From positions 1 to 64,000 of the forward strand of contig NZ_QNRR01000004.1 of the NCBI RefSeq assembly GCF_003315205.1: a DNA stretch of 64,000 bases, read 5' to 3'. The notes beneath the pieces were generated by a model that was given only the letters and a program-made list of their open reading frames with translations, was not told the DNA's origin and did no database searches. This DNA is from Roseimicrobium gellanilyticum. Its GTDB lineage: Bacteria > Verrucomicrobiota > Verrucomicrobiia > Verrucomicrobiales > Verrucomicrobiaceae. Below are positions 6,951 through 57,240 of this stretch, one piece after another (position 1 is the first letter of the stretch; each line of letters starts with the position of its first letter). A program made the position numbers and the translations under genes.

Positions 6951-7106
6951 TCGGTAGGGTGCTGCTGCGCCGGCACCCTGATCAGGTGGGGCTTTGGATG
7001 GTGCGGAGCTGGGCGGGTAAGGTCGTGCGCAGGGAAGATGGCGAAGATGTTCCACACCACCTCCGCCCACGGAAATTTGGGTGCCGACGCAGCAGCACCC
7101 TGCCGA
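6951..7106. repeat. Long inverted repeat (28-bp arms), copy 1
   Basis: Arms at 6951-6978 and 7079-7106 are reverse complements at 26 of 28 positions by my alignment, with a 100-base spacer. The core of the right arm is GACGCAGCAGCACCCTGCCG. A related right half, including the adjoining CTCCGCCCACG, recurs at 39529-39574. The repeat fills most of the gap between the acetyltransferase and the GyrI-like gene (6866-7153), which holds no gene I can support. Confidence 0.75.
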
Positions 7107-14561: not shown

Positions 14562-17048
14562 ATGTGGCGCACCACTCCCTCAACTGACAACGAGCCCCTG
14601 GATCTCACGGCCTACAACGATGCCGAGGCCATGAAGGCCTCCATTCGCAATCACCTCCTTTTCACCCTCGCACACGATCCGCAGACCGCCACGAAGATGC
14701 ACTGGTGGTGGGCCACCTGCATGGCGGTGCGTGACCGTGCGCTGGCACAATCCTTCAAGACCATGCGCACGCATCGCTCGAAGAATGTGCGCCGCGTGCA
14801 CTACCTCTCCCTGGAATACCTCATGGGCCGTCTGCTGGAGAACAATCTCCGCAACACCGCGCTGTATGACTCCGCCAAGGAGGCTCTCACGGACCTCGGC
14901 CAGGACCTGGAGACCATCATCAATCGTGAGCCGGACATGGGGCTGGGCAATGGTGGCCTCGGCCGTCTTGCGGCATGCTTCCTTGATTCCTTCTCCACAC
15001 TGGATCTGCCGGCGGTCGGTTATGGCATCCACTATGAATTCGGCCTCTTCCGCCAGGAGTTTGTGCATGGCCGTCAGGTGGAGCAGCCGGATGCATGGAC
15101 ACGCGAAGGCAGCCCGTGGAAGATTACGCGCCCTGAGTACAAGGTGGAGGTGAGCCTCTACGGTCATGTGACCCAGCACTTCGATGACTATGGCAATGCC
15201 AAGATGGTGTGGGAGAACTGCCGCAAGATCGTCGGCATGCCGTGGGACATCCCCATCATTGGCTACCGCTCCGCCACGGTGAACTTCCTGCGCCTGTGGG
15301 AGAGCCGGGCGACGGATGATTTTAATCTCAAGGTCTTCAACGAAGGCTCCTACATCGAGGCCATTCATGACAAGGCCGCGAGCGAGACCGTCTCGAAGGT
15401 GCTGTATCCCAACGACGCCACGGAGAGCGGCAAGGAGCTGCGCCTGGTGCAGCAGTACTTCTTTGTGGCCTGCTCGCTGTCAGACATCATGCGCCGGTAC
15501 AAGCGGGACAACCAGGGCTGGGAAGCGTTCCCGGACAAGGTGGCCATCCAGCTCAATGACACGCACCCGGCTGTGGCCATTCCCGAGCTCATGCGCCTGC
15601 TCGTGGATATCGAGGAGCTCCCGTGGGAGCAGGCGTGGAGCATCACGCAGCGCACCTTCAGCTACACGAATCACACCCTCCTGCCGGAGGCGCTGGAGAC
15701 GTGGAGCGTGGGCCTCTTTGACAAGGTGCTGCCGCGTCACCTGCAGATCATCTACACCATCAACGAGAAGTTTCTCCGGGAGGAGGTGTCACGTCGTTGG
15801 CCGGGAGACATCAGCAAGATGCAGGCGCTCTCGATCATTGATGAGAATGGTGGCAAGCGGGTGCGTATGGCCCACCTCTCCGTACTGGGCAGCCATGCTA
15901 CAAATGGCGTGGCCGCGCTGCACACGCGTCTGCTTCGCGCGAAGCTCTTCCCCGAGTTCAATGAGCTCTACCCGGGCCGCTTCCTCAACATGACGAACGG
16001 CATCACGCCGCGTCGCTGGCTCATGGTGTGCAATCCGGAACTCACCAGCCTCATCACCGAGTCCATCGGCGATGCATGGACGAAGGATGCCTCGAAGCTG
16101 CGTGCCTTGGAACCCTTCGCGGAGGATCCTGCCTTCCAGCAGCGCTTCCGTGCCATCAAGCGCAAGCACAAGGAGCACCTCACCACGATCGTCAAGAAGC
16201 TCACTGGCTATGACATCAGCGCGGATGCCATCTTCGACGTGCAGATCAAGCGCCTGCATGAGTACAAGCGCCAGCACCTGAATCTGCTGCACATCCTCAC
16301 CCTGTACCGCAGGCTCCTGCAGGATCCGGGGTATGATATGCAGCCGCGTGTGTTCCTCTTCGCTGCGAAGGCCGCGCCGGGATACTACCTTGCGAAGAAC
16401 ATCATCCACTGCATCAACGCGGTGGCGGAGAAGGTGAACAATGACCCGCGCATCCTTGGCAAGCTCAAGGTTGCCTTCCTGCCGAACTACGGCGTGACCC
16501 TCGCAGAGCGCATCATCCCTGCGGCGGATGTCTCGGAGCAGATCTCCACCGCAGGCAAGGAAGCCTCTGGCACCGGCAACATGAAGCTCGCCCTCAATGG
16601 TGCGCTCACTGTCGGCACGCTGGATGGCGCCAACGTGGAAATCAAAGACGAGGTGGGCGATGACAACATCTTCATCTTCGGCCTCACCGTCGAGGAGGTG
16701 GAGGAACTCCACGCCCGTGGCTACAATCCGTGGGACTACTACTGGAACGACGCCGAACTGCGCAACGTCATCGACTGGATCGCCAGCGACTTCTTCACCG
16801 GCAATGCCGAGGACTTCAAGCCGCTGCGCAACAGCCTGCTCGAAGGAGGCGACCCCTTCCTGGTCCTGGCCGACTACCGCGCCTATGTGCAGGCTCAGGA
16901 GAAGGTGGATGCCGCTTACCGCGACACCACGAACTGGACCAAGATGAGCATCCTCAACACCGCCAGAAACGGCTTCTTCTCCAGCGACCGCACCATTAGT
17001 GAGTACGCCGAGAAGATCTGGAAGCTGCCGGGAATCCGGGTGGAGTAG
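14562..17048 (+). CDS. glgP: Glycogen/starch/alpha-glucan phosphorylase
   Basis: The 828-residue enzyme releases glucose-1-phosphate from alpha-1,4-glucans with pyridoxal phosphate. Signatures include [35 protein letters not shown], the [16 protein letters not shown] block and RIHEYKRQ-like [15 protein letters not shown]. The PLP segment is [19 protein letters not shown], with the PLP lysine at about residue 675. Full length agrees with the family. It stands alone here, with the heptamer repeat and a terminator after the stop. Its regulation is not visible from the sequence. Confidence 0.98.
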
Positions 17049-17059
17049 GGGAGAGTGGG

Positions 17060-17098
17060 CAGTGTTCAGTAAGCAGTAGATCGTAAGTAGTCAGTAGA
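17060..17098. repeat. TCAGTA-type heptamer remnants
   Basis: Just after the glgP stop come GCAGTGTTCAGTAAGCAGTA and then GTAAGTAGTCAGTAG, the same words that build the heptamer repeats at 40503, 53831 and 56986. This is a short, degenerate member of that family. Confidence 0.55.
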
Positions 17099-17122
17099 AG
17101 ACTGCTCCAAAGAGATTTGAAA

Positions 17123-17154
17123 GCGCCGGTTGTGAGACCGGCGCCTTCTTTTTT
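17123..17154 (+). terminator. Rho-independent terminator after glgP
   Basis: An 8-bp stem GCGCCGGT / ACCGGCGC with a 6-base loop is followed by CTTCTTTTTT, a convincing intrinsic terminator 75 bases after the glgP stop. Confidence 0.9.
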
Positions 17155-17182
17155 GGCTCCCTTCAGTGTGTTCGCGCGCATT

Positions 17183-17386
17183 GGCCCTGGGAGCGCTGGC
17201 CTCCGGCCGGCGTATTTGGTCTGCCGTGAGCTATTTACGAATGCACTTATTCCTCCCAGCATCCCCTCGCAGGGAGCGGGACTCGCCGAAGTCCCGTGAT
17301 GTATGTTATTCTCGCACGTGACGCGAAGTTGCCGCATTACCTTGTTCCCGCAACCACGCCGGCCAGAGGCCAGCGCTCCCAGGGCC
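17183..17386. repeat. Inverted pair of GGAG-hairpin (REP-like) units, type B with inner type C
   Basis: Arms at 17183-17213 and 17356-17386 are reverse complements at 30 of 31 positions. Each contains GGGAGC followed by a GCTGGCC / GGCCGGC hairpin. Between them, at 17274-17296, is GGAG followed by a CGGGACT / AGTCCCG hairpin. That inner hairpin is a base-pair-compensated variant of the CGGCACT / AGTGCCG hairpin of the type A elements at 20.7, 22.5 and 25.7 kb. The element fills most of the 470-base gap 17049-17518 between glgP and the copper locus; no gene is seen there. Confidence 0.8.
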
Positions 17387-17518
17387 GCTGAACTCCGCTT
17401 TCGTGCATTCAGCCTTGAACAAACCCTCCGCGCTTGCGTCCAACTCGTTGGCCCGTATTGTAACAATATCCGGCCTCGTGCGTATCCATTCGTAGAGACC
17501 ACATCGTCAGCGCGGTTC

Positions 17519-17911
17519 ATGCGTCATTTCCGTTCCATCGTCCTCATCATCGCTGTCCTCCTTCAGGCGCTGCCTGGAGCGGTGGGATTGCGTGCCATGG
17601 GCATGGCGGCAGAGGCGACACCGAAATGCGAAATGGATTGCTGTGCATGGGTCCAGCAGGTGGAACAGGAAGAAAATACCTGTGCCTGTGCTCCTGCCAC
17701 AGAACAGCAGCAGCCCACGGCACCTCCCACCATTCCCTCCCAGTCCGCGCGTGATGTGATTCCCGTCGTGTATTGGAAGGCTCAGGAAGACATCCTCCAG
17801 CCTGCGGCTCCCATCAGTGAGCCCCAGTCCAGCTTTGTCACGACTGATGCGTCAGAAAAGGCCACGCCGCACGTCCGGCTGTCGGTCCTTTTCTGCGCCA
17901 TTTTGATCTGA
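17519..17911 (+). CDS. Small exported Cys-rich protein of the copper locus
   Basis: The 130-residue product has a signal peptide (MRHFRSIVLIIAVLLQALPG). A Cys cluster follows (CEMDCCAW, then CACA, about residues 38-60), then a Pro/Gln-rich linker, and a hydrophobic end (VRLSVLFCAILI). I do not recognise a family. The cysteines and the next gene, a multicopper oxidase 144 bases downstream on the same strand, suggest copper binding or delivery in the periplasm; that is inference. The frame is open back to 17303, but ATG at 17519 begins the signal peptide. Confidence 0.7.
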   Translation: MRHFRSIVLIIAVLLQALPGAVGLRAMGMAAEATPKCEMDCCAWVQQVEQEENTCACAPATEQQQPTAPPTIPSQSARDVIPVVYWKAQEDILQPAAPISEPQSSFVTTDASEKATPHVRLSVLFCAILI

Positions 17912-18055
17912 TCCTGCGTCGTTGACAGACGCATTGCGCCCAGGCGTTGCCATCTTCACGGCAGCATCGTGCTTGGATCTCGCCCCCGCCCACCGTGGGC
18001 CGTCATGGGGACACACTCTTCCAGATCAGATTCGACAAGACCTACCCAGTCAGTC

Positions 18056-20278
18056 ATGCACCTTTCCCTCACCTCTCTTTTCCGTGCCATCGCCACGTTG
18101 GCACTACTGCACCCGCTCGCTGCCCTGGCCTGCGACGAGTGCAAGCTCAAGGCTCCTCCCGGCGCGAAGGTCGTGGAGTATGACCTCTACATTGATGAAC
18201 AGACCGTCCGCCCCGCCGGCAAGCGTGTGCGCGGGCTCACCATCAATGGCGGCATCCCCGGACCCACGCTGCGCTTTCGTGAGGGCGAGTGGGCGCGCAT
18301 TCGTGTGCACAATCGCCTGAAGAACGAAGAGACCTCCACGCACTGGCATGGCTTGCTCCTTCCGAATGTGCAGGACGGCGTGCCCTACATTACGACACCG
18401 CCCATCCTGCCGGGGAAGACGCACACGTTTGAGTTCCAGCTCAAGCATTCCGGCACGTACTGGTACCACTCGCACACGCACCTGCAGGAGCAGATTGGCG
18501 TGTATGGGTCTATCGTGGTGCATCCGCGTGGTGGTGAACCGGTGAAAGCCGACCGCGAGGAGGTGCTGGTGCTTTCCGACTGGACGAACATCAACCCGCA
18601 CGAAGTGCAGCGCATGCTCATGCGTGGCAGCGACTACTTTGGGCTGAAGCGTGGCAACGCGCAGTCCATCCTCGGTGCCATTCAGTCCGGACACTTCAAG
18701 GAGTACCTCTCCAACCAGTGGTCCAAGATGCCGCCCATGGATCTGTCCGATGTGGGATACGATGCCTTCCTCATCAACGGCCAGCGCAGCGTGCAGCTTG
18801 GCGGGAAACCGGGTGAGCGTGTGCGCCTGCGCATCATCAATGCCTCTGCAGCGTCTTACTTCTTCCTGACTTCCTCCGCAGGTCCGATGACCATCGTGGC
18901 GGCAGATGGCCCCGCAGTGGAGCCAGTGAAGGTGGACCGCTTCCTCATGGCCATCGCGGAGACGTATGATGTCATCGTCACCGTGCCACCCAGTGGCCAG
19001 TACGAGCTGCGTGCTACGGCACAGGACAACAGCGGCCATGCGTCCGCTTTCTTTGGCAACGGTGAGCTCAAGCCTGCCGCTGATCCGCCGAAGGCCAATG
19101 TGTACTCCATGGATGAGATGCTGAATCTCGCGCTGGAGGAGCAGGAGGATGACCCTCGCGCTGCGCTGAATCTTCCGCGTCCCGGCTCGCCGTATCGTGT
19201 ACTGAAGTCCCCCGGGAGCACCACACTGCCGAAGAACCTGCCGCGCCGCAAGATTTCGCTCAAGCTCACGGGAGACATGAACCGCTACATCTGGGGCTTC
19301 GATGGCAAGACCATCGCCCAGGACCCCTACATCCATATCAAGAAGGGCGAAATCATCGAGTTGGAGTTGGTAAATGACACCATGATGCACCATCCCATTC
19401 ACCTGCATGGCCACTTCTTCCGCCTGCTCATGGGGCAGGGGAGGCGCTCACCGCTGAAGCACACCGTGGACGTGCCCCCTATGAGCACGCGCACCGTCGA
19501 GTTTGAGGCGAACGAGACGCACGACTGGATGTTCCACTGCCACATCCTCTATCACATGATGTCCGGCATGGCCCGCGTGTTCCGCTATGCACCGGAGGAC
19601 GGCGCGATGCCTCAGTATGCGAACAGCCCTGCTGCGAATACGAACGTCGCGTCTGCTGACAATCCGGGCGAGGCTGCGCAGAGCAGCATCGCTTCCGGTG
19701 ACCATGGTTATGGTTTTGGTCGTGCCATCGGTGGCGCTCACAGGCATGGCAGCATGGCCATGGGCAGCTTGGGCGAGCACAGCCATGACATGGCCTACAT
19801 CTGGGGAGCGGCTTCCATCCAGTCCCACATGACGGAGGGACTCATCACCTGGATGAACCCCAAGGACGACATCCTGCTCGGCTGGGAAGTTGGTTGGGCC
19901 AATGTGGATGACACCGAGTACGAAGTGGAGGCGCTCTACCAGCGCTACTTCAACGCGGACTTCCAGGCCTTCATCGGCGCACGCCTCACCAATGAGGACG
20001 ATGCGGAGAACCGTGCGGTCATCGGTTTCAACTACCGCCTGCCGCTGCTGGCTTGGGCCACCATCAGTGTCGACAGCGAAGGCGATGCGTGTTTCGCACT
20101 GGCGAAGGAGTTCCAAATCACCCCGCGCCTCGCTGCCTTCGGCCAGGTCGAGTACGACACCAACACCGAGTGGAAGTGGTCTGCCGGAGCGACCTACACG
20201 CTCACGCGCACCGCCTCCCTCATCACCCAGTACCACTCCGAGTACGGCCTCGGTGCTGGTCTCGAAGTTAGATTTTGA
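18056..20278 (+). CDS. copA: CopA-type multicopper oxidase fused to a CopB-like outer-membrane domain
   Basis: The 740-residue protein starts with a signal peptide (MHLSLTSLFRAIATLALLHP). Three cupredoxin domains follow, with all copper ligands visible: THWHG (near 95), WYHSHTH (near 142), HPIHLHGHFF (near 446) and HCHILYHMMSGM (near 494). From about residue 530 a His/Met/Gly-rich linker (GGAHRHGSMAMGSLGEHSH) leads to a 190-residue beta-rich domain with alternating strands and a terminal aromatic residue (GAGLEVRF). This resembles CopB of copper-resistance operons, normally a separate gene. The enzyme would oxidise Cu(I) at or near the outer membrane. Fusion is seen in the sequence; membrane insertion is inferred. 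Confidence 0.9.
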   Translation: MHLSLTSLFRAIATLALLHPLAALACDECKLKAPPGAKVVEYDLYIDEQTVRPAGKRVRGLTINGGIPGPTLRFREGEWARIRVHNRLKNEETSTHWHGLLLPNVQDGVPYITTPPILPGKTHTFEFQLKHSGTYWYHSHTHLQEQIGVYGSIVVHPRGGEPVKADREEVLVLSDWTNINPHEVQRMLMRGSDYFGLKRGNAQSILGAIQSGHFKEYLSNQWSKMPPMDLSDVGYDAFLINGQRSVQLGGKPGERVRLRIINASAASYFFLTSSAGPMTIVAADGPAVEPVKVDRFLMAIAETYDVIVTVPPSGQYELRATAQDNSGHASAFFGNGELKPAADPPKANVYSMDEMLNLALEEQEDDPRAALNLPRPGSPYRVLKSPGSTTLPKNLPRRKISLKLTGDMNRYIWGFDGKTIAQDPYIHIKKGEIIELELVNDTMMHHPIHLHGHFFRLLMGQGRRSPLKHTVDVPPMSTRTVEFEANETHDWMFHCHILYHMMSGMARVFRYAPEDGAMPQYANSPAANTNVASADNPGEAAQSSIASGDHGYGFGRAIGGAHRHGSMAMGSLGEHSHDMAYIWGAASIQSHMTEGLITWMNPKDDILLGWEVGWANVDDTEYEVEALYQRYFNADFQAFIGARLTNEDDAENRAVIGFNYRLPLLAWATISVDSEGDACFALAKEFQITPRLAAFGQVEYDTNTEWKWSAGATYTLTRTASLITQYHSEYGLGAGLEVRF

Positions 20279-20347
20279 TGACCCTTTTTGCAGTCATCGA
20301 TACCGAAAAACGAAACAGACAAATACCCCCCCGACATCATCACCATT

Positions 20348-20608
20348 ATGAAAACAAAACTCACCACCTACCTTTCCACCCTTCTCCTTGGTGCCGCACT
20401 TGTTGCCACCAGCATCCCCGCCACGGCATCAGCCGCAGATGTGAAGCCTTATACGCTGAAGACCTGCGTTGTGAGTGGAAATGAACTCGGTAGCATGGGC
20501 AAAGTGGTCACCAAGACCTACGAGGGGCAGGAAGTAAAATTCTGCTGCAAGCCGTGCATCAAGAAGTTCGACGCGAATCCCGCGAAGTACCTCTCGAAGC
20601 TGAAGTAA
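20348..20608 (+). CDS. Exported YHS-like heavy-metal protein
   Basis: The 86-residue product has a signal peptide (MKTKLTTYLSTLLLGAALVA, ending near SAADVKP). A small domain reads TCVVSGNELGSMGKVVTKTY, then EGQEVKFCCKPCIKKFDANPAKYL. The spacing Cys, then FCCKPC and the final F.A.P.KYL is that of YHS/TRASH metal-binding domains. It lies 69 bases after the multicopper oxidase and is followed by a terminator, so it belongs to the copper operon and may pass or buffer copper in the periplasm. ATG at 20348 is chosen for the signal peptide. Confidence 0.85.
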   Translation: MKTKLTTYLSTLLLGAALVATSIPATASAADVKPYTLKTCVVSGNELGSMGKVVTKTYEGQEVKFCCKPCIKKFDANPAKYLSKLK

Positions 20609-20640
20609 ACGGGTAGCAGCGATAGCTGTGAACCTTTCGG

Positions 20641-20677
20641 CTCCCCGTTCCTGTGAAACGCAGGGACGGGGAGTTTT
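20641..20677 (+). terminator. Rho-independent terminator of the copper locus
   Basis: A 13-bp stem with one mismatch (CTCCCCGTTCCTG pairing with CAGGGACGGGGAG) and loop TGAAACG is followed by TTTTC, 32 bases after the YHS-like gene. Confidence 0.85.
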
Positions 20678-20708
20678 CGTTGGTGAGGTGAAAAGGTCGA
20701 CAGTCCAA

Positions 20709-20847
20709 GGAGCGGCACTAGCCTAGTGCCGTCATGCAGGGTGGCACGCCATGTGGCGTTTGAATGGCCGCCTTGCGTGTTTGTGAGGGCAAGAAAAAGG
20801 CTCCGCACCCACATTGCCGACCACCGGCACTAGGCTAGTGCCGCTCC
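20709..20847. repeat. Type A REP-like element, copy 1
   Basis: A 139-base element is bounded by perfect 23-bp inverted arms (20709-20731 and 20825-20847). Each arm is GGAG followed by a hairpin with core GGCACTAGCCTAGTGCC. Inside, before the right arm, is a segment (GGCTCCGCACCCA, then GCCGACCAC) shared with copies 2 and 3. It lies between the copper terminator and the sulfatase gene. Confidence 0.92.
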
Positions 20848-20913
20848 CTGCGAGAGCTCCATCCGCTCGAACACATTCCCGCAAGATTCCGGTCTCGCCT
20901 TCGTTCACCCGCG

Positions 20914-22425
20914 ATGTTCCAGCGTCTCGTCTCCACCGCAGCATCCACCATCACCCGCGCCACGGCGATTCTCGCCAGCGCTGCTGCTCTCGCGACCTCA
21001 GCCACCACCACTGCTGCAACCCCTGCCACCACGCCCAACATCATCTTCATCATGGCAGATGATTTGGGCTACACGGATGTCCATTGCTTCGGCAGCCAGT
21101 ACTACGAGACGCCGAACATCGACCGTCTCGCAGAGCAGGGGATGAAGCTCACGAGCTACCACCAGGCGCAGAACTGCCAGCCCACGCGCGCGGCGCTCAT
21201 GACCGGCCAGTACGGTCCGCGTACCGGGGTGTACACGGTGGGTGGGATCGACCGCTTCAACTGGCGTTCGCGTCCCCTGCGTCCGGTGGACAATCTCGAT
21301 TCCCTCCCCCTGGAGAAGAAGACCGTGGCGGAGTCGCTCAAGTCCGCGGGCTATGCCACGGGGATGTTCGGCAAGTGGCACCTCGGCAACGATGGCGCAC
21401 ATCATCCCGGCAAGCGTGGGTTCGATGAAGCCATGGTGAGCATGGGGAAGCATTTCAACTTCAACACCAATCCCAAGGTGGAAGTGCCTGAGGGAGCCTA
21501 TCTTGCCGACTTCCTCACGGCCAAGGCCGTCGACTTCATCACCCGGCACAAGGACAAGCCCTTTTTTCTCTACCTGCCACACTTCGGAGTGCATTCACCG
21601 CATGAGGCGAAGAAGGACCTCATCGAGCATTTCAAACCCAAGGCCCCCGCGGGAGGCCATGACAATCCCACGTATGCGGCCATGATCGCCAGCGTGGACG
21701 AAAGCGTGGGGCGCGTGATGGATACCCTGGAGAAGCTCCAACTCGCGGAGAACACCGTGCTCATCTTCACCAGTGACAACGGCGGCGTGGGTGGCTATGC
21801 GCGTGAAGGCATCAAGAAGGCGGGCGACATCACCGACAACGCGCCACTGCGCAGCGGCAAAGGCAGCCTGTATGAAGGTGGCACGCGCGTGCCCTTCGTC
21901 GTGCGCTGGCCGGGTGTGGTGAAGCCTGGCAGCACCAGCGATGTGCCTGCGATTCACGTGGATATCTTCCCCACACTCGTAGAGCTTGCGAAGGGCACAG
22001 CGCCCGAGGGCCAGACGCTGGATGGTGAAAGCCTCGTGCCGCTCTTCCGTGATGGCGGAGCCACGCTGAAACGCGAGGCGATTTTCCAGCACTTCCCCGG
22101 CTACCTCGGCGCGGGCGAGAACTCCTGGCGCACCACGCCGGTGGCTACCATCGTGAGCGGTGATTGGAAGCTGATGGAATTCATGGAGGACAAGAAGGTG
22201 GAGTTGTACAACCTGAAGGACGACATTGGCGAAACGAAGAACCTTGCCGCGACGGAGACTGAGAAGACCACGGCATTGCTCGGGAAGCTGCACGCCTGGC
22301 AGCAAGAAATTAAAGCGCCCATGCCCACGCCGAATACAGAGCAGGGACAACCCACGCCTGAGAAGAAAGGCGGCAGGAAGAAGGGAAAGAAGGCGAAGGC
22401 GGCTGCAGAGGGGGGTGATGAGTGA
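20914..22425 (+). CDS. Exported sulfatase (type I, Cys-type)
   Basis: The 503-residue enzyme hydrolyses sulfate esters. An Ala/Thr-rich N-terminal segment acts as signal peptide (to about residue 35). It is followed by the metal-binding start NIIFIMADDLGYTDV and the sulfatase signature NCQPTRAALMTGQYGPRTG, whose Cys (in CxPxR) must be converted to formylglycine. GKWHLGNDG and FTSDNGGVGGYA supply further active-site residues. The end is Lys/Gly-rich (KKGGRKKGKKAKA). No maturase gene is in the window. It is flanked by type A repeats on both sides. The substrate is probably a sulfated glycan or similar polymer, by family. Confidence 0.95.
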   Translation: MFQRLVSTAASTITRATAILASAAALATSATTTAATPATTPNIIFIMADDLGYTDVHCFGSQYYETPNIDRLAEQGMKLTSYHQAQNCQPTRAALMTGQYGPRTGVYTVGGIDRFNWRSRPLRPVDNLDSLPLEKKTVAESLKSAGYATGMFGKWHLGNDGAHHPGKRGFDEAMVSMGKHFNFNTNPKVEVPEGAYLADFLTAKAVDFITRHKDKPFFLYLPHFGVHSPHEAKKDLIEHFKPKAPAGGHDNPTYAAMIASVDESVGRVMDTLEKLQLAENTVLIFTSDNGGVGGYAREGIKKAGDITDNAPLRSGKGSLYEGGTRVPFVVRWPGVVKPGSTSDVPAIHVDIFPTLVELAKGTAPEGQTLDGESLVPLFRDGGATLKREAIFQHFPGYLGAGENSWRTTPVATIVSGDWKLMEFMEDKKVELYNLKDDIGETKNLAATETEKTTALLGKLHAWQQEIKAPMPTPNTEQGQPTPEKKGGRKKGKKAKAAAEGGDE

Positions 22426-22470
22426 GCAACGTGGTGATTCGTTTTTTCATTTGAAAAGCCGACAGTCCAA

Positions 22471-22618
22471 GGAGCGGCGCTAGCCTAGTGCCGTCCTGCA
22501 GGCTGGCACGCGATGTGGTGTGGAAGTAGTCGCATCGCGTGTCTGGCTGCAATGCAACTTCTCCAAGAGGCTCCGCACCCAGATGGCCGACCACCGGCAC
22601 TAAGGCCAGTGCCGCTCC
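22471..22618. repeat. Type A REP-like element, copy 2
   Basis: Arms at 22471-22493 and 22595-22618 each carry GGAG plus the CGGC[A/G]CT / AGTGCCG hairpin; the left one has a G-T wobble. The inner GGCTCCGCACCCA and GCCGACCAC words match the other copies. It starts 45 bases after the sulfatase stop. A type B unit follows exactly 52 bases after the right arm. Confidence 0.92.
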
Positions 22619-22670
22619 TTGAACAGGAGACGTCTCTAAGTGGAAAGGCAAGGTTGTTGCTGCAGATACA

Positions 22671-22699
22671 GCCGGCCGGAGGCCAGCGCTCCCAGGGCC
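22671..22699 (-). repeat. Type B REP-like unit
   Basis: This segment matches the arm of the 17183-17386 element (core GAGGCCAGCGCTCCCAGGG). On the minus strand it reads GGGAGC followed by a GCTGGCC / GGCCGGC hairpin. The 52 bases separating it from the type A element resemble those at 25842-25893, so A and B form a composite. Confidence 0.85.
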
Positions 22700-22770
22700 T
22701 GCATACCCAGTGGCGTTCCAAGGAAGATTGATGGAATTGCTGCCTTTTGCGTTTCTTTGCGGCTACTCAC

Positions 22771-25395
22771 TCACAGCGCTGTCTTCGTCTTCGTCGCAGA
22801 CTTCAACCCACCAAACGCCATGTCCCAGATACCGGTGACGTGTTCCCAGCGACGCACGATGGCATCGATGATGAACAGGCAGAGCAGGGCGATGACGAGG
22901 GTGGGCCACAGTTCAAAGTAACGGCGGGCTTTGGCGCTGCCGAGGTCGAGCTTGGTATCTTGATTCAAATATGTGCCGCCCGTCATTTGTGTGACTTCGC
23001 GCAGCAGAGGTTCATTCACCGTGCCGAGGCTTTGCTCACCGCTGGGGTTGTGCACAAGACCGGCGGTCACCATCTGGGCACCGCTTTGGGCACGCACGAG
23101 ATACACACCCGCCTGCTCCGGTTTGAAGTCGCCGGCATAGAGACCCGGTCCGCTTTGGCGTAAGGTGAGCGCTTGCACGGGTTTCAGCGGAGCACCCAGT
23201 GACTCGGCGGAGACGAAGAAGACTTCGGCAGTGACACGCGCTTCATTGCCACGGGTGCCAGCATCGGTCAGCACATCCACGCTGACCTTCGCTTCATCGC
23301 CCACCATCTCGCAGCGCAGATCCATGTTCTGACCTTGAGGCGGACGCGCGGTTTCGCGGAGCACTTGGGACCAGAATTGGCCAAAGCCATTCCACCGGCT
23401 GATCCACAGGGAGGCCCAGCGGCTCTTCGCATCGCTGGTGAAAGCGGTGGCTTTGCCGAGGCCAAAGCGCCAGTGGGCGAGCAGAGGGTCACCGAGGTCC
23501 GTGACCAGCGGGACTTGAGCGGTGCTCTTGCGCAGAGTCTTTACATAACCCAGCAGCGGTGGCGGCTCGAACTTGTCCCAACCGGCGAGAATGGGATGGC
23601 GCTCAGACATGGCGGGTGTGAAAGCATCCTCGCGGATCATGCGGCCGGTGTGGATGAGAGTGTCCTGCGTGAAGATGCGCGTGATGTTCGAGGCATCCAG
23701 CGTGGTGTAGCTCTGACCGCCACCGAGACTCGCGATGGCCTGCAGCAATCCCACATGCGCGCCATCGCCTATCGCCACGGTGGAAATGGTCATGCCCTCA
23801 GCGCGGCATTGCGAGGCGAGCGATTCATAGCCCGTCCCACTGGTCTGGCCGTCGGTAAGCAGGATCATGTGTTTGATCTTGGCCTTCACACGCTGGAGGG
23901 CGTTGCGTGCTTCAGACATGGCGGGGTAGGCATTCGTGCCGCCGCCACTGGTGAGTCCGGCAATCTGTCCTGCCACAGCGGCCGCAGAGCTCAGGCGTGT
24001 CATCGGCACCACCACGTGCAGCTCGGAGTCGAAGGCATATACGCCGATGCTGTCATTGCGCGTGAGCACTTCCGCGGTGGCAATGGCGGCGCTCTTGGCC
24101 ATCTCCAGCTTCTCGCCGGACATCGAACCGGAACGGTCAATCACCAGGGCGAGGGCGCTGCTTTGTTTTTCCTCTTCATCCGGCGCTTTCAGCCGCACGG
24201 GCAGTACTTCTTCAATCGGCGTGCGGAAATAGCCGCCGACACCGAAGGAGTTCGGCCCGCCCAGCATGATGAAGCCGCCGCCCAGCTTGTCCACGTAGTC
24301 GCGGATGGCGACCATGGTGTTCTCCCCGAGTTTGTGCGCGGGTACATCTGAAAGTATCACACCATCATAGCCGCTGAGTTCCTGCGGACTTGCGGGGATG
24401 GTGCCGGGCGCGCGCAGCTCGAGCTGGATGCCCTCCTTCTCCATGGCCTGCATGAGGTACTGCGCTTCATTCGCATCGCCCTCTACGAAGAGCAGGCGCA
24501 GGCGGCCGCGCACGTCCACCAGGGTCAGTGCCTCGTTGTTCGCAGGAATGGCGTCGCCGGCGAAGCCCTCCAGCACGGCGCGGTATTTGTAGATGTTTCG
24601 CGTGGCGGGGTGGCGGGTGAAGAGCTCCTGCAGCGCCTGACCGGCTTTGACGCTCACATTGCGACGCTCCACCTCCACACCGTTCTCGAAGAGCTTGAGC
24701 GAGCCGCTGCCATCCATGGTGCTCTCGATGTCCACGGTGAGCTTCAGGGCTGCGCCCTCATGCAGGCGGGATTGACTGGGCACCAGTTGGCGTACACGCA
24801 CATCGGGCTTGCGTGGACCTGCCACCGGTACGGCATGCACCTGGACTTCGGCCAGTGCGGCACCGCGTGCGGCTTCCACCAGATTGCCGCGCGTCTCATG
24901 GCCATCGCCGATGAGCACCACATGCCGCGATGTGCCCGCAGGGAAGAGTGCTCGCGCATACTCCACGGCGGCGGCGTAGCGGCTCTGTGCGCCGTGATTC
25001 TTTTGCATTTCGGCCAGAGACTCTGCCGCCGGGTCCTTGAGTTCGGGTTCGTTGAGCAGTCGGGTTTCGTCGCCGAAGGCCACGTTGAAAACTTCTGTGT
25101 CACCGGGTAGCGAGGCTCGGAGGGAGTCGGCTTTCTGCAGCGCGGTCTTCACACCTTCAGGACCGAGGCTCTGGGAGACATCCACCGCCACGACCACGGC
25201 GCGACGATTGCTGGTGATGACCTTTGCCGGACCCGCCAGCGCCGCGAGCGCGAGGATGACACCCAGCGCCCGCACGATGAGCAGCATCCGCTTCCGCGAG
25301 GCTGGCATGGGATGCGCCGATTTCCGCTCCGCCCACACGAGAAACGCCAGCGCCGGGATGATGAGCAGGAGGAGGTAAGGGTACTGCCAGTCCAT
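22771..25395 (-). CDS. Large VWA / glutamine-amidotransferase-like membrane protein
   Basis: The 874-residue protein has two N-terminal membrane segments (residues 4-21 and 37-57), the BatA-like layout. A first VWA-type strand follows (VVVAVDVSQSLGPEG). A central class-I-amidotransferase-like domain reads LRLLFVEGDANEAQYL and GYDGVILSDVPAHKLG. A full VWA domain near 420 has the MIDAS motif DRSGSMSGEK. A beta-rich domain and a last membrane helix (LWPTLVIALLCLFIIDAIV) precede a basic tail. Such proteins are common in planctomycetes and Verrucomicrobia; the role is unknown but probably envelope-related metal-dependent binding. It converges on the sulfatase with repeats between. Confidence 0.9.
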   Translation of the reverse strand: MDWQYPYLLLLIIPALAFLVWAERKSAHPMPASRKRMLLIVRALGVILALAALAGPAKVITSNRRAVVVAVDVSQSLGPEGVKTALQKADSLRASLPGDTEVFNVAFGDETRLLNEPELKDPAAESLAEMQKNHGAQSRYAAAVEYARALFPAGTSRHVVLIGDGHETRGNLVEAARGAALAEVQVHAVPVAGPRKPDVRVRQLVPSQSRLHEGAALKLTVDIESTMDGSGSLKLFENGVEVERRNVSVKAGQALQELFTRHPATRNIYKYRAVLEGFAGDAIPANNEALTLVDVRGRLRLLFVEGDANEAQYLMQAMEKEGIQLELRAPGTIPASPQELSGYDGVILSDVPAHKLGENTMVAIRDYVDKLGGGFIMLGGPNSFGVGGYFRTPIEEVLPVRLKAPDEEEKQSSALALVIDRSGSMSGEKLEMAKSAAIATAEVLTRNDSIGVYAFDSELHVVVPMTRLSSAAAVAGQIAGLTSGGGTNAYPAMSEARNALQRVKAKIKHMILLTDGQTSGTGYESLASQCRAEGMTISTVAIGDGAHVGLLQAIASLGGGQSYTTLDASNITRIFTQDTLIHTGRMIREDAFTPAMSERHPILAGWDKFEPPPLLGYVKTLRKSTAQVPLVTDLGDPLLAHWRFGLGKATAFTSDAKSRWASLWISRWNGFGQFWSQVLRETARPPQGQNMDLRCEMVGDEAKVSVDVLTDAGTRGNEARVTAEVFFVSAESLGAPLKPVQALTLRQSGPGLYAGDFKPEQAGVYLVRAQSGAQMVTAGLVHNPSGEQSLGTVNEPLLREVTQMTGGTYLNQDTKLDLGSAKARRYFELWPTLVIALLCLFIIDAIVRRWEHVTGIWDMAFGGLKSATKTKTAL

Positions 25396-25697
25396 GAAGC
25401 GAAGCTGCGGCGGGGAAGCGGAGAGAAAGCGTGGTCTAGAGTTCTAACACAACACCATTTCTACGAATGCACTGCAACAGTTTCTCCGGGCAAGTTCGGG
25501 GGAATCGAGCGGGTGGTGGGTGGAAGGGACGTTTCGGTTAACCGCAAAGGGGCAGAGGAGCGGAGGACGCAGAGGATAGGAGGGTTTGGTGGTGGGGTGG
25601 GTTGAGGTTGGGTAAGCGTAGCAATGCTTCGAGGCATGAGGAGGCAGAGATGCGGAGAATGCCATCGCGATTCCATGCGAATTGGCCGACTGTTCAA

Positions 25698-25841
25698 GGA
25701 GCGGCACTAGCCTTAGTGCCGTCTTGCGGTGTGAGTACCCGGGCGAAGGGCGAGGAATCCGACGTATCCATCCTTCAGTCCCGGCTCTCAAGGCTCCGCA
25801 CCCAGATCGCCGACCACCGGCACTAAGGCTAGTGCCGCTCC
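25698..25841. repeat. Type A REP-like element, copy 3
   Basis: Arms at 25698-25721 and 25818-25841 each carry GGAG plus a CGGCACT / AGTGCCG hairpin and are reverse complements over 24 bases. The inner GGCTCCGCACCCAGAT and GCCGACCAC words are shared with copies 1 and 2. It is followed after 52 bases by a type B unit. Confidence 0.92.
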
Positions 25842-25893
25842 TTGAACGGCAGGACGCTTATGCGTGGCGGAGCAGGGTGATGCCGCAAAAGCA

Positions 25894-25921
25894 GCCGGCC
25901 AGAGGCCAGCGCTCCCAGGGC
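25894..25921 (-). repeat. Type B REP-like unit
   Basis: This unit matches 22671-22699 with one change (GGCCAGAGGCCAGC). It lies the same 52 bases from its type A neighbour. Confidence 0.85.
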
Positions 25922-26063
25922 TGCTGTAATGCAATGAAGTGGGGCACCGGATTTGACGATGACTTCGCATCTCTGCCCCTTTGCGGTTAACCGGAATCGG
26001 CCCCACAGCCCAAACTCGCGAAGGGATTCCTCCTGCGTCGGGCTGCGCTAACGCGAGCTACGT

Positions 26064-26639
26064 TCAAGCGCACTTCGGGCAGATGCCGAAGAACTCGAGT
26101 TCGTGGTAGAGTTTCCGGAAGCCGGAGTCGCGGGCGATTTGGGCCTCGAGTTGTTCCACCGGACAGGCGATGTCGAGCTGCTCGATCGCGCCGCATTCGG
26201 TGCAGATGAGGTAGTCGTGATGCTCGTCTGGGAGGTTCACGGTGTAGTAGGCGGAGCGGTCATGCAGGCCGAGGCGGCGCAGGATCCCCTGCTTCTCCAG
26301 GCGCACGAGGAGGCGGAAGACGGTGGCGCGGTCGCAGCGGTTCTTCAGCAGCTTGGACTCGGCGAGTTCGCCCAGCGTCATGGGACGCGGGGACTCGACG
26401 AGCACCTTCAGGAGGTCCTCCAGCGCGGCGGTACGGCGCAGGCCGAGCGCGCGGCAGCGGCCTACCGTTTCCTGCACCAGTTTCGCGGATTGCTGCGCGG
26501 TCATGGGCTCGCGGACGCCGGTGCCCGCGTGTGAATGACCGTGATCATGATCGTGGCTGTGGTCATGGTCGTGACCTTGGCTGCCAGCGTGGGAGTGCTC
26601 CATGCCTTGGGATACGTCAGTGCCGTGAGGGGGGATCAT
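26064..26639 (-). CDS. Fur-family metal regulator with His-rich N-terminus
   Basis: The 191-residue regulator has a Fur winged helix (residues 55-125; DRATVFRLLVRLEKQGILRRL is the recognition region, shown as ATVFRLLVRLEKQGILRRL). The dimerisation domain has HHDYLICTECGAIEQLD and two CxxC pairs (CTEC and CPKC) that bind structural zinc. Residues 15-40 are His/Asp/Gly repeats (HDHDHSHDHDHGHSH), unusual for Fur and likely metal-binding. By class it could be Zur, Fur or PerR; the zinc-like leader makes Zur-type control plausible. Its ATG overlaps the TGA of the ThuA-like gene (ATGA), so the two are translated together. An internal Met near residue 46 would remove the His tract. Confidence 0.9.
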   Translation of the reverse strand: MIPPHGTDVSQGMEHSHAGSQGHDHDHSHDHDHGHSHAGTGVREPMTAQQSAKLVQETVGRCRALGLRRTAALEDLLKVLVESPRPMTLGELAESKLLKNRCDRATVFRLLVRLEKQGILRRLGLHDRSAYYTVNLPDEHHDYLICTECGAIEQLDIACPVEQLEAQIARDSGFRKLYHELEFFGICPKCA

Positions 26640-39448: not shown

Positions 39449-39574
39449 CGGTAGGGTGCTTTGGGATGCGGAACCAGATGGTGGGGATAGGGCGTCGCAG
39501 GCCGATTTCACCTGGCAGCTCCGCACGGCTCCGCCCACGAAAATTAGGAGGCCGACGCAGCAGCCCCCTACCGG
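39449..39574. repeat. Diverged copy 2 of the 6951-7106 inverted repeat
   Basis: The right half, CTCCGCCCACG to CCTACCGG (39529-39574), aligns with 7068-7105 including GCCGACGCAGCAGC. The left half is reduced to CGGTAGGG-GCT (39449-39460), still complementary to the right end. It lies in the gap 39440-39790, where I see no gene. Confidence 0.6.
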
Positions 39575-39790: not shown

Positions 39791-40492
39791 CTATCCCTGA
39801 TACAGCACGCGTCCGCACTGTTCGCAGTTGGTGATTTCTTTCTGCTCACGCACACCCTGGATGGTGGCGAGCACCACTTTCATATGGCAGCCCTGGCAGG
39901 TGTCTTTTTCAAGAGGTACCACGACCGAGTTGCCCTTGCTCTTCAGCAGGCGGTTGTACATGGAGAGGGCGTCAGGCTCGACATTACCGGAGAGATCCGT
40001 GCGTTCCTTGTTCAGTTCCGCAAGGCGCTCTTGAATGGCCTTGGCACGCTCCGTGAGTTCAGCAATCTCGGCATCGACACTCTTCTTGGTGACTCCGAGC
40101 GCCTGCTGGGCGGCCGTGAGGCCTGGCTTCACTTTCTCGAGCTGATCCATGAGCTCCAGTTCCTGGTCTTCCAGGTTGGAAATCTCCTTTTCATAGCGCT
40201 CGATTTCGTGGCCCATGGCGCGGAACTCCTCGTTCTTGCGCGTGGCGAACTGCTGTTCCTTCAGGCGCCCGATGGTGTTGCGCCGGGTGTTGGCGTCGAG
40301 TTCGAGATTCTTGATCTTCAGTTCCACCTCACGTACGCGTCCTTGAGCCGTGGCCACTGCCGCCTCATCGTCTGCAAGGCGCCCCTTCGCCCGCTCCTGC
40401 AGGGTGGGGATGTTCTTGAGATCCTTGGAAAGCGAGATGATGCGCTGATCGCGGTCCTGAAGGTCGAGGAGATTTTGGATGACGGGGAGCAT
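39791..40492 (-). CDS. C4-type zinc-ribbon coiled-coil protein (DUF164-like)
   Basis: The 233-residue protein has a long coiled coil (residues 1-175; LLDLQDRDQRIISLSKDLKN, then EIERYEKEISNLEDQELELM). It ends in a zinc ribbon with CQGCHMKV and CEQCGRVLY, and a sequence GRVLYQ typical of the C4-type zinc ribbon family PF02591 (CdsZ-like). Members are thought to bind nucleic acid or act as chaperone or adaptor; function is not established. It is separated from nagZ by a heptamer-repeat hairpin. Confidence 0.88.
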   Translation of the reverse strand: MLPVIQNLLDLQDRDQRIISLSKDLKNIPTLQERAKGRLADDEAAVATAQGRVREVELKIKNLELDANTRRNTIGRLKEQQFATRKNEEFRAMGHEIERYEKEISNLEDQELELMDQLEKVKPGLTAAQQALGVTKKSVDAEIAELTERAKAIQERLAELNKERTDLSGNVEPDALSMYNRLLKSKGNSVVVPLEKDTCQGCHMKVVLATIQGVREQKEITNCEQCGRVLYQG

Positions 40493-40502
40493 GGGAATGA
40501 AA

Positions 40503-40640
40503 GTAAACAGTGTTCAGTAGTCAGTATTCAGTGTGCGGCAGTCGGGAGTATGTAGTGAGTAGTAAATGGTAAGTAGGGGGCAAGTTGCAGATACTGGTTA
40601 CTGAATGCTGTTTACTGACTACTCACTAGTTGCTACTTGC
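40503..40640. repeat. Heptamer-family hairpin
   Basis: The left arm AGTAAACAGTGTTCAGTA (40503-40520) pairs with the right arm at 40599-40617 with few mismatches. Between and around them are further CAGTATTCAG, GTAGTAAATGGTAAGTAG and ACTGACTACTCACTAG words. It fills the gap between the zinc-ribbon gene and nagZ. Confidence 0.7.
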
Positions 40641-56560: not shown

Positions 56561-56971
56561 CTAAATTGAGTATTTTTCGATGATCCAGTCGGGGATAGAT
56601 TCCGGCTTGCCCGTGTCCAGTTTTACCATGGTAAAGACGCACCAGCCCACGCAGGCGGGGCGTCGTTTCTCTCCCTTCAACATCTCGAAACGCACTTCCA
56701 CATCCGGGCTGCGAATGTCCTCCACCCACGTGCGCACCACAAAACGTTCCGCAATGCCGAGCGCCCGCTTGTACTCGAAATGGGAGGTCTTCACATACCA
56801 GCCAAGTCCTTGTTTCAGGAATTCCTCCATGCTCAATCCATAGCACCGCTCCATCTGATCAAAACGCGCCGCTAGCAGGTAGTCCAGATACCGGCTGCTG
56901 TGCACATGACGGAAGAGGTCGATATCGTCCGGACGGACCTGGAGTTCGGTTTCGAACTTGGTGTGATGCAT
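56561..56971 (-). CDS. Acyl-CoA thioesterase (hotdog fold)
   Basis: The 136-residue enzyme has the 4HBT/YbgC pattern: VRPDDIDLFRHVHSSRYLDY with the catalytic Asp and the following His region, an ARFDQMERCYGLSM helix, YVKTSHFEYKRALGIAERFV and the closing strands. These thioesterases hydrolyse acyl-CoA. It lies 91 bases upstream of the ceramidase-like gene on the same strand. The long heptamer array begins 15 bases before its start, so its promoter region is made of repeats. Confidence 0.88.
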   Translation of the reverse strand: MHHTKFETELQVRPDDIDLFRHVHSSRYLDYLLAARFDQMERCYGLSMEEFLKQGLGWYVKTSHFEYKRALGIAERFVVRTWVEDIRSPDVEVRFEMLKGEKRRPACVGWCVFTMVKLDTGKPESIPDWIIEKYSI

Positions 56972-56985
56972 GGGGAGAGGAGGGG

Positions 56986-57176
56986 AGTAGTCAGTAGTCA
57001 GTAGTCAGTAGTCAGTAGTCAGTAATCAGTAGTCAGTAATCAGTAATCAGTAATCAGTAATCAGTAATCAGTAATCAGTAATCAGTAATCAGTAATCAGT
57101 GGTCAGTGGTCAGTGGTCAGTGGTCAGTGGTCAGTGGTCAGTGGTCAGTGGTCAGTGGTCAGTGGTCAGTGGTCAG
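56986..57176. repeat. Tandem heptamer array (about 27 units)
   Basis: The array is built of seven-base units TCAGTAG, TCAGTAA and TCAGTGG. Reading left to right, units are first mainly TCAGTAG, then almost all TCAGTAA, then all TCAGTGG, which is the pattern left by repeated local duplication. Single diverged copies (GAATACTGGTTACTG and similar) flank it to 57220. No spacers are present, so it is not CRISPR. Confidence 0.95.
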
Positions 57177-57240
57177 GGCTGAATACTGGTTACTGTACAC
57201 TGATTACTGAACACTTGCTCCACAACCTCCTGCCGCGTTT

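Follow-up and report, generated by a model that had tools for sequence, protein, structure and literature searches.

The eleven short hairpins preceded by the tetranucleotide GGAG that we located in the first 64 kb (hereafter the window) of contig C4 (NZ_QNRR01000004.1) of Roseimicrobium gellanilyticum are, with a probability of roughly 0.92, repetitive extragenic palindromes (REPs) of several GGAG families. The same estimate covers the reading of the facing pairs as REP doublets forming hairpins (REPINs) and the movement of families A, D and F in trans by cognate REP-associated tyrosine transposases (RAYTs). The genome (G000) comprises 7.93 Mb in 32 contigs, and the hairpins of the window fall into six of type A, four of type B and one of type C. 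REPs rank among the most frequent repeats of bacterial genomes. The paired hairpins are small mobile passenger elements, and a DNA-cutting enzyme encoded by the cell most likely moves them.

The tag directly precedes the hairpin at all eleven sites (Table 1), in the letters themselves and in the pattern matches, as the initial annotation had claimed. Type A has the structure GGAG-CGGCACTA-loop-TAGTGCCG with a stem of 8 bp, where that annotation had given 7 bp. Type B reads (T)GGGAG-CGCTGGCC-TCY-GGCCGGC, and its stem CGCTGGCC/GGCCGGCG holds a T-G mismatch that is retained in 28 of the 40 genome copies, those matching without mismatch. The A positions given earlier stand, the B sites placed at 17183 and 17356 begin at 17188 and 17358, and the type C hairpin begins at 17273 on the plus strand. 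The copy at 22471 was missed by the exact A pattern because of its stem mismatch. Within the window the A hairpins form three pairs with their tags outward (20709/20825, 22471/22595 and 25698/25818) and a B pair (17188/17358) encloses the C hairpin; the pairing described earlier does not extend to the B hairpins at 22671 and 25894, which are single. Rfam returned nothing convincing over positions 16900-26100 (one match, E value 0.038, 18.2 of 40 bits).

Table 1. GGAG-tagged hairpins of the window, and RAYT genes of the genome with the hairpins that accompany them.
Feature	Location	Strand	Remark
Type B REP, left half of B pair	17188..17211	+	pattern match
Type C REP, inside B pair	17273..17296	+	pattern match; 4 exact genome copies
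Type B REP, right half of B pair	17358..17381	-	pattern match
Type A REP, left half of REPIN A1	20709..20731	+	GGAG and 8-bp stem CGGCACTA
Type A REP, right half of REPIN A1	20825..20847	-	pattern match
Type A REP, left half of REPIN A2	22471..22493	+	one stem mismatch; reads CGGCGCT
Type A REP, right half of REPIN A2	22595..22618	-	pattern match
Single type B REP	22671..22694	-	76 bp start to start past REPIN A2 right half
Type A REP, left half of REPIN A3	25698..25721	+	pattern match
Type A REP, right half of REPIN A3	25818..25841	-	pattern match
Single type B REP	25894..25917	-	76 bp start to start past REPIN A3 right half
RAYT-A	C5, 320.35-321.04 kb		A hairpins at 320159(+), 320246(-), 321033(-)
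RAYT-D	C1, about 88.2-88.8 kb		between two facing D hairpins
RAYT-F	C8, about 354.3-354.9 kb		between two facing F hairpins
RAYT gene L046	C2:896 kb		hairpins preceded by GTGG
RAYT gene L044	C16:76 kb		hairpins preceded by GTGG

Copies in the genome were counted by pattern searches and from 40 stretches of 20 kb, 8 around RAYT matches and 32 on a grid. The exact A pattern has 31 copies and C has 4, while B has 40 (up to 3 mismatches). Two further GGAG-tagged families, D (GGAG-NGGGAACG-CCT-CGTTCCC) and F (GGAGGTTAGGCCTTCCGGCCTGAC, up to 3 mismatches), have 37 and 67 copies, and the reversed patterns used as controls gave 0 matches for each of the five. The expectation of many copies was thus borne out; the three variants of a single family described at first are tagged hairpins as stated, of at least five families (A, B, C, D and F). 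The window makes up 0.8% of the genome yet holds 10 of the 75 A, B and C matches, and is therefore locally rich. Stem changes among the F copies come in pairs (GGCC/GGCC, GGGC/GCCC, GGCG/CGCC, GGCT/AGCC), as expected if the hairpin matters.

Neighbours of the same family within 1 kb of each other face one another with their tags outward in 7 of 8 cases for A, 9 of 9 for B and 9 of 9 for D (25 of 26 overall), where chance predicts 0.1 to 0.2 neighbours per family; the sole non-facing pair is a tandem A pair at the RAYT-A locus. The anticipated preference for intergenic sites was also found. With a home-made codon-model gene finder, applied to 30 of the 31 A, 30 of the 40 B, all 4 C and 30 of the 37 D copies with F left out, 85 of 94 copies lay outside predicted genes (A 28/30, B 23/30, C 4/4, D 30/30), against the 10.3% of bases expected there from grid stretches that are 89.7% coding. 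These are tagged palindromes in many copies (just four for C), extragenic, and arranged as inverted doublets with a spacer, which are the broad marks of REPs and REPINs.

A mostly extragenic location would equally suit terminators or mRNA-stabilizing 3' structures that were duplicated by ordinary recombination and are not mobile, and the B hairpins at 17193 and 25910 and the C hairpin at 17276 are indeed listed as terminator-like. The six type A hairpins are all absent from that list, and termination has no need of a conserved tag, of outward-facing pairs, of RAYT genes within the same hairpins, or of a unit of about 150 bp dispersed at 18 or more places in the genome of a sister species (G002). 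We regard this explanation as most improbable, and favor mobile REPs and REPINs whose hairpins may have a secondary role in transcription.

The genome contains 13 matches to PF01797 (Y1_Tnp). Five of these belong to compact genes with open frames of 158-166 aa, IS200 TnpA-like by length and score only. A Y1_Tnp gene flanked by the same hairpins, proposed at the outset as a check, exists for families A, D and F. The TAA stop codon of the RAYT-A open reading frame (ORF) lies within the downstream hairpin. Of 30 type A copies, 18 are followed by the same tail as the downstream REP of RAYT-A (two of these 18 lie at the RAYT-A locus), and because of this shared tail the A REPINs look like derivatives of the ends of the RAYT-A unit. 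In the window, the tail of the A REP at 20825..20847, GTGGTCGGC..GCGGAGCC, is similar to the 3' end of the RAYT-A gene. The loci L044 and L046 are of the GTGG type, and both tag classes therefore coexist in one genome.

RAYT-A has the HUH motif, the catalytic tyrosine and the Y---NP motif (H126, H128, Y186, N190 and P191). Its comparison with the counterpart in G002 gave a nonsynonymous rate (dN) of 0.024, a synonymous rate (dS) of 0.437 and a dN/dS of 0.06, substitution rates that show strong purifying selection. The best NCBIfam match of all seven RAYT-like proteins scanned is the REP-associated tyrosine transposase (REP_Tyr_transpos), whose cut-off of 80 bits is passed by two of the seven, L042 (92.4) and RAYT-D (81.5); RAYT-A (76.8) falls slightly short of it, and RAYT-F scores 59.1.

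These scores bear on the idea that A, D and F are the ends of an IS200/IS605 element proper, comparable to miniature inverted-repeat transposable elements, and not REPs served by RAYTs. The five compact PF01797 genes of the same genome fit this idea, as does the AlphaFold2 model of RAYT-A (57-row alignment, mean pLDDT 91.9), which has the same fold as the TnpA proteins of IS608 and ISDra2 (Z about 10-11.5). The best PDB match of the model is, however, 4er8, the E. coli TnpAREP with its REP (Z 14.4, 144 residues, 3.2 Å), and 4er8 is also the best solved match of a profile built from five RAYTs; the RAYT-A sequence alone found no match in the PDB at 0.001. Among A, D and F the IS200 model of NCBIfam is listed for RAYT-A only, at 27.8 bits against a cut-off of 55. 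The class 2 Y---NP motif, as given in the accessible part of PMC6006769, is present in all three, and each occupies a single locus in G000, in contrast to the multi-copy transposases of IS200/IS605. An IS200/IS605 origin is for these reasons hard to credit, and the assignment of A, D and F to RAYTs is retained.

Several observations weigh against RAYT-moved REPs as an account of every hairpin. In G000, the 8 RAYT-like genes have no bracketing B or C hairpins within 2.5 kb. In G002, the widest of the facing B pairs under 2 kb measures 580 bp, too short for a RAYT gene, and none of the best 7 of 11 RAYT matches lies between B hairpins. Moreover, a blind scan of the 640-kb grid returned 5 perfect hairpins (stem of at least 7) after GGAG against 1 in a Markov control, and GGAG was absent from the 25 commonest 4-mers preceding hairpins in that scan. 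The five include one C, one D and one further type; REPs are too sparse per kilobase for a blind scan of this kind to discover them. The proposed mobilization by RAYTs is supported for A, D and F, each with a flanked gene; no such gene was found for B and C, which are either orphans or served by some further RAYT. A B pair lies about 1.5 kb beyond RAYT-F and does not enclose it. That RAYT-F serves B is a guess, prompted by stems that in both families contain a T-G mismatch and end in GGCC/GGCC.

Comparison with G002 gave further information on the mobility of the elements. The whole A REPIN, about 150 bp with the spacer included, occurs there at 18 or more places with 71-82% identity. REPINs A2 and A3 and the B hairpin at 25894 have counterparts at the same place, the B pattern gave no match at the place corresponding to 22671, and no A pattern was found within 1.5 kb of either end of the blocks that flank REPIN A1 (window 20609-20878). 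REPIN A1 sits at the junction of two blocks that lie 2.35 Mb apart in G002, and an exact empty site was established for none of the REPINs in this comparison. These alignments show an apparent difference in REPIN presence between the sister species. Type B is narrowly distributed, with matches (up to 2 mismatches) in 4 of 59 genomes of the family and 66 copies in G002; relatives of RAYT-A are found in 56 of the 59.

The published REP tag is GT[A/G]G (PMC3686654, PMC6006769; these and the other PMC articles are cited for the accessible portions of their text), and A, B, C, D and F all carry GGAG. Because they lie outside this definition, the hairpins were filed as a GGAG variant of REPs and REPINs. 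In other respects they resemble the GTAG superfamily (PMC3733652, PMC3686654, PMC3116915), which likewise consists of tagged palindromes of about 20-25 nt in facing pairs, mostly extragenic, with several families per genome and repeat-specific RAYTs bracketed by the repeat. The degenerate tags reported in the portion of PMC3733652 available to us (GYAG, GYRG, GTRG and GTMG) all exclude G at position 2, unlike the GGAG found here. GGAG at the start of a word is absent from the texts, figures aside, of PMC3733652, PMC2817692, PMC3686654, PMC6006769, PMC8266576 and PMC3116915, and literature searches, with most subscription papers outside reach, found no report of a GGAG tag. Since PMC3686654 and PMC6006769, in the passages concerned, define or search REPs by GTAG or GTGG, a whole tag class may be uncounted. 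The initial annotation called such elements little described in this lineage; REPs as such have been described in the verrucomicrobium Opitutus terrae (PMC3733652, in part), and the phylum is therefore not blank.

By its motifs and size only, RAYT-A fits TnpAREP subclass 2.7 as outlined by Quentin et al. 2018 in PMC6006769 ([ND]HVH, WQ, YI[LR][NQ]NP, median of 213 aa). That subclass is reported there with long GT[AG]G REPs, in contrast to the GGAG hairpins of RAYT-A; the REP finder of that study, as described in the available text, required GTAG or GTGG and therefore could not list GGAG elements. The E. coli TnpAREP of 4er8 and RAYT-A are 19% identical over 144 aligned residues. RAYT-A retains the equivalents of W94, Q95 and R104, whereas E100 is replaced by D and H101 by R (residue 172 of RAYT-A), and the A stem is a short perfect hairpin, unlike the bulged E. 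coli REP in 4er8.

The breadth of the GGAG class was assessed with a survey of 85 loci, namely the best 80 of 523 named relatives of the five-RAYT alignment and five genes of G000. The records nearest to the RAYT genes of this genome are mostly from Verrucomicrobiota (among the best 80 of 523). Over these 85 aligned RAYTs the HUH motif is present in 85 and the tyrosine in 84, L153 lacking it at a contig end. When all 256 tetramers were counted as the 4-mer before at least 2 flanking hairpins, GGAG was the commonest (33 of 85 loci), and GTAG and GTGG were found at 20 and 15; AGGA, GAGC, AGCG and AAGG, which rank in between, are mostly shifted readings of the same tags. Adding 29 loci from the family gave 114, of which 112 were readable (L245 and L253 have no readable domain), and L225 was excluded as a second copy of L048. 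The automatic caller assigned a tag at 71 of the 112 loci, GGAG at 45 and GTRG at 26. Two earlier callers, misled by shifted readings or by minus-strand loci, were replaced; one of them had given, for 85 loci, GGAG at 31 (R 26, T 5 at the contact position discussed below), GTRG at 28 (H 25, R 3) and no call at 26. Some genes were seen in two collections, as identical rows (L145/L229, L146/L233, L148/L236, L191/L254) or as judged by numbers (L156/L273, L159/G005:C121, L211/L267), and the counts are therefore of loci, not of events. GGAG elements extend beyond Verrucomicrobiota, for example to Lamprocystis purpurea (L160) and a Planctomycetia bin (L209). As a separate observation, the RAYT of L207, whose contact residue is T, is surrounded by long clusters of repeated hairpins with a tag resembling GGGG.

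The contact position is that of H101 in E. coli TnpAREP, one of five residues (W94, Q95, E100, H101 and R104) discussed in the accessible text of PMC6006769 in connection with the GTAG tag, where the role of W94 is called unclear. The residue aligned with H101 is R at 41 and T at 4 of the 45 GGAG loci, and H at 25 and R at 1 of the 26 GTRG loci, the single R belonging to L173, whose tag call is doubtful. A looser caller gave R 42, T 9 and H 0 for GG tags and H 23 and R 4 for GT tags. In both callers, therefore, H pairs with T at base 2 and R or T mostly with G, and H was found with a GG tag in neither. From this we infer that the residue aligned with H101 takes part in the readout of base 2 of the tag.

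This covariation could reflect shared ancestry only, without mechanistic meaning, an alternative that we rate as a serious one at somewhat under even odds. On a RAYT tree of 111 rows, from which the columns around the contact motif had been removed, the tags change 2 times, against about 21 with shuffled labels, and the link between tag and residue is largely one phylogenetic split. The following points count against a role of this residue. Of 3 independent pairs on supported branches about 2 are concordant and 0 opposed, which is not significant; R occurs with a GT tag in L220, L222 and L247, to which the looser caller adds L153; R is sometimes found at 101 in two GT[AG]G subclasses, according to the part of PMC6006769 at hand; and 41 of the 112 loci have no automatic tag call. 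Because of the single main split, reversals were sought by eye, and two further contrasts emerged that argue against ancestry alone, as does the absence of H with GG tags. Within the GGAG side, the clade L203/L189/L204 has H and GTAG/GTGT/GTAC; within the GTRG side, the RAYTs borne by CarB go with GGAA where the residue is R (L168, L186), with GGAG/GGAA where it is T (L183) and with GTAA where it is H (L182). The basis on which a RAYT selects its REP is not settled, and the natural split in tags together with a known contact position makes the question testable.

Taken with published work on related enzymes, these data are consistent with the following mechanism. A REPIN consists of two facing REPs and a spacer and forms a non-autonomous mobile unit. 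Families A, D and F would be moved in trans, each by its cognate RAYT, a Y1 transposase of the HUH class encoded between REPs of that family. By analogy with its relatives, the RAYT would bind the folded single strand, tag bases 3 and 4 (AG, as in GTAG) would guide the choice of the CT cleavage site, and the cut unit would be rejoined elsewhere, probably at replication forks. The guide model, as set out in the available part of PMC8266576, has bases 3 and 4 select the CT site; GGAG keeps these two bases, and base 2 would therefore be free to drift with the protein. The RAYT clade that serves the elements of the window would recognize a G at base 2 in place of T, a readout to which the residue aligned with H101 (R or T, not H) would contribute.

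The most surprising side result was found in relatives, outside the window, where RAYT domains form in-frame parts of host proteins. In 28 of the 80 named relatives the RAYT domain has 100 or more open codons on each side, and 6 more have at least 200 on one side. As a control, 54 of 400 other frames at the same loci hold runs of at least 420 codons; an open frame alone is therefore weak evidence, and the ORFs were scanned for domains. In these Pfam scans, recognized host parts precede and follow the RAYT in a single frame in at least 22 of the 80 named relatives. The hosts include leucyl-tRNA synthetase (LeuRS; L154, L159, L171, L185), CarB (L168, L182, L183, L186), HsdR (L156, L170, L173, and L222 of the EcoEI type), MmeI-type proteins (L162, L193, L209), type IIG enzymes (L161, L214), SNF2 (L166), exonuclease VII (L177) and PriA (L215). 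In L211 and L216 the RAYT is flanked by alcohol-dehydrogenase and GFO/IDH/MocA domains, which we take to be one two-domain enzyme. For L166, L168 and L222 the RAYT was identified by tblastn, the Pfam Y1_Tnp match being above 1e-5. Further genomes of the family add glycosyltransferases, NUDIX proteins, a Clp ATPase and a LeuRS as hosts; the NUDIX cases have a host part on one side only, and one of them, L266, comes from a one-contig genome. The candidate L263, a 983-aa frame with a stop, was rejected in favor of a stand-alone 232-aa frame.

In related species, REP-RAYT-REP units also sit in frame in host genes, the host protein carrying the transposase as an inserted domain. L171 aligns with Thermus LeuRS in two stretches, 9-364 and 377-876, separated by an insert of about 216 residues; in L182 the stretches that match E. 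coli CarB are 1-480 and 501-900, with about 285 residues between them. Where the DNA was read, REP-like hairpins mark the ends of most embedded RAYTs. The L171 insert begins with GGAG-hairpin and finishes with hairpin-CTCC, and its hairpins translate as GERGRPAR and GGTPAL. The L182 frame also holds, downstream of the RAYT unit, a second in-frame palindrome cluster (NSAFQADPSGKLPAC).

Most of these loci come from draft metagenome-assembled genomes, which, together with the open control frames and the stop codons found inside 10 of the 85 RAYT domains, raises the question of assembly chimeras or pseudogenes. None of the ten is an embedded domain, and host domains resume in frame on both sides at the 22 or more named loci. 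The four named LeuRS, from four different records, share one insertion site, and a fifth, from a further genome of the family, fits by domain order. Each of the four drafts has one strong match to the LeuRS editing domain (E about 1e-63), which is the RAYT-carrying ORF, the other 7 matches being weak (E 1e-8 to 4e-5); among the genomes with CarB-borne RAYTs, two of four have a single carB ORF and the other two have extra pieces. RAYT domains, stand-alone or embedded, have dN/dS values of 0.06-0.47, mostly at or below 0.25, over the 10 of 14 pairs that are unsaturated, and host and RAYT parts lie between 0.06 and 0.50 where silent sites are unsaturated. Artifact or decay is accordingly very unlikely as an explanation, and the insertions are taken as genuine in-frame RAYTs.

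In the type IIG-like hosts of L214/L218/L221, the dS of the insert (0.21-0.47) is well below that of the host (0.94-1.86), and the insert therefore seems to have been moved or converted after the hosts parted, a pattern that would fit transfer, spread of a homing-like kind, or gene conversion at a single site. L156/L167 show the opposite (insert 2.69, host 0.79), and the other pairs no clear difference. Embedding requires 15 changes for 34 rows on the 111-row tree, which, within the limits of so quick a tree, implies many gains or losses.

Inteins and homing-type insertions also place a DNA-acting enzyme in frame inside conserved host proteins. The L214/L218/L221 insert, which looks younger than its host gene, is like them in this respect; unlike inteins, the embedded RAYTs have hairpins at their ends, which translate as short linkers. 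The Pfam scans, in which no search aimed at inteins was made, listed no splicing family at E values up to 1e-5. Palindromes in frame within genes are known from the intragenic REPs of Opitutus terrae and the Rickettsia palindromic elements, and in-frame palindromic repeats from uvrA and tRNA-synthetase genes of various species (PMC3733652, from the part accessible). The Opitutus and Rickettsia cases are short repeats, as described there, whereas the in-frame segment in the present hosts is a complete REP-RAYT-REP unit with its transposase. Literature searches, which left most subscription papers out of reach, yielded no account of a host gene with a RAYT gene embedded in frame.

A broader proposal, to which we give a little less than an even chance, joins these results. 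GGAG REPs would form a distinct REP/RAYT branch missed by GTAG/GTGG surveys, with tag base 2 set largely by position 101 (R or T versus H). Members of this and the sister branch would have become intein-like residents, their hairpins serving as linkers and the transposase as an in-frame domain of functional essential enzymes (LeuRS, carbamoyl-phosphate synthase, restriction/helicase), under purifying selection and with catalytic residues intact, sometimes spreading between homologous hosts after host divergence. Embedding of this kind could make a mobile element difficult to lose. A transposase within apparently sole-copy essential enzymes raises the questions of whether the product is fused, spliced or cleaved and whether the embedded nuclease still acts.

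The window also holds other repeats. An inverted GGTTAACCGCAAAGGGGCAGAG-like stretch lies on both sides of the REPIN A3 cluster (25512-25660 and 25963-26003) and belongs to another dispersed repeat, with many copies in G002. A further short repeat at 26011-26064 has four 93-96% identical G002 copies among the matches listed. A 7-base unit (variants CAGTAGT, CAGTAAT and CAGTGGT) forms arrays or traces at 56958-57215, 40488-40637 and 17051-17097, and a 45-base repeat occurs twice, at 7061-7105 and 39529-39573, with 87% identity.

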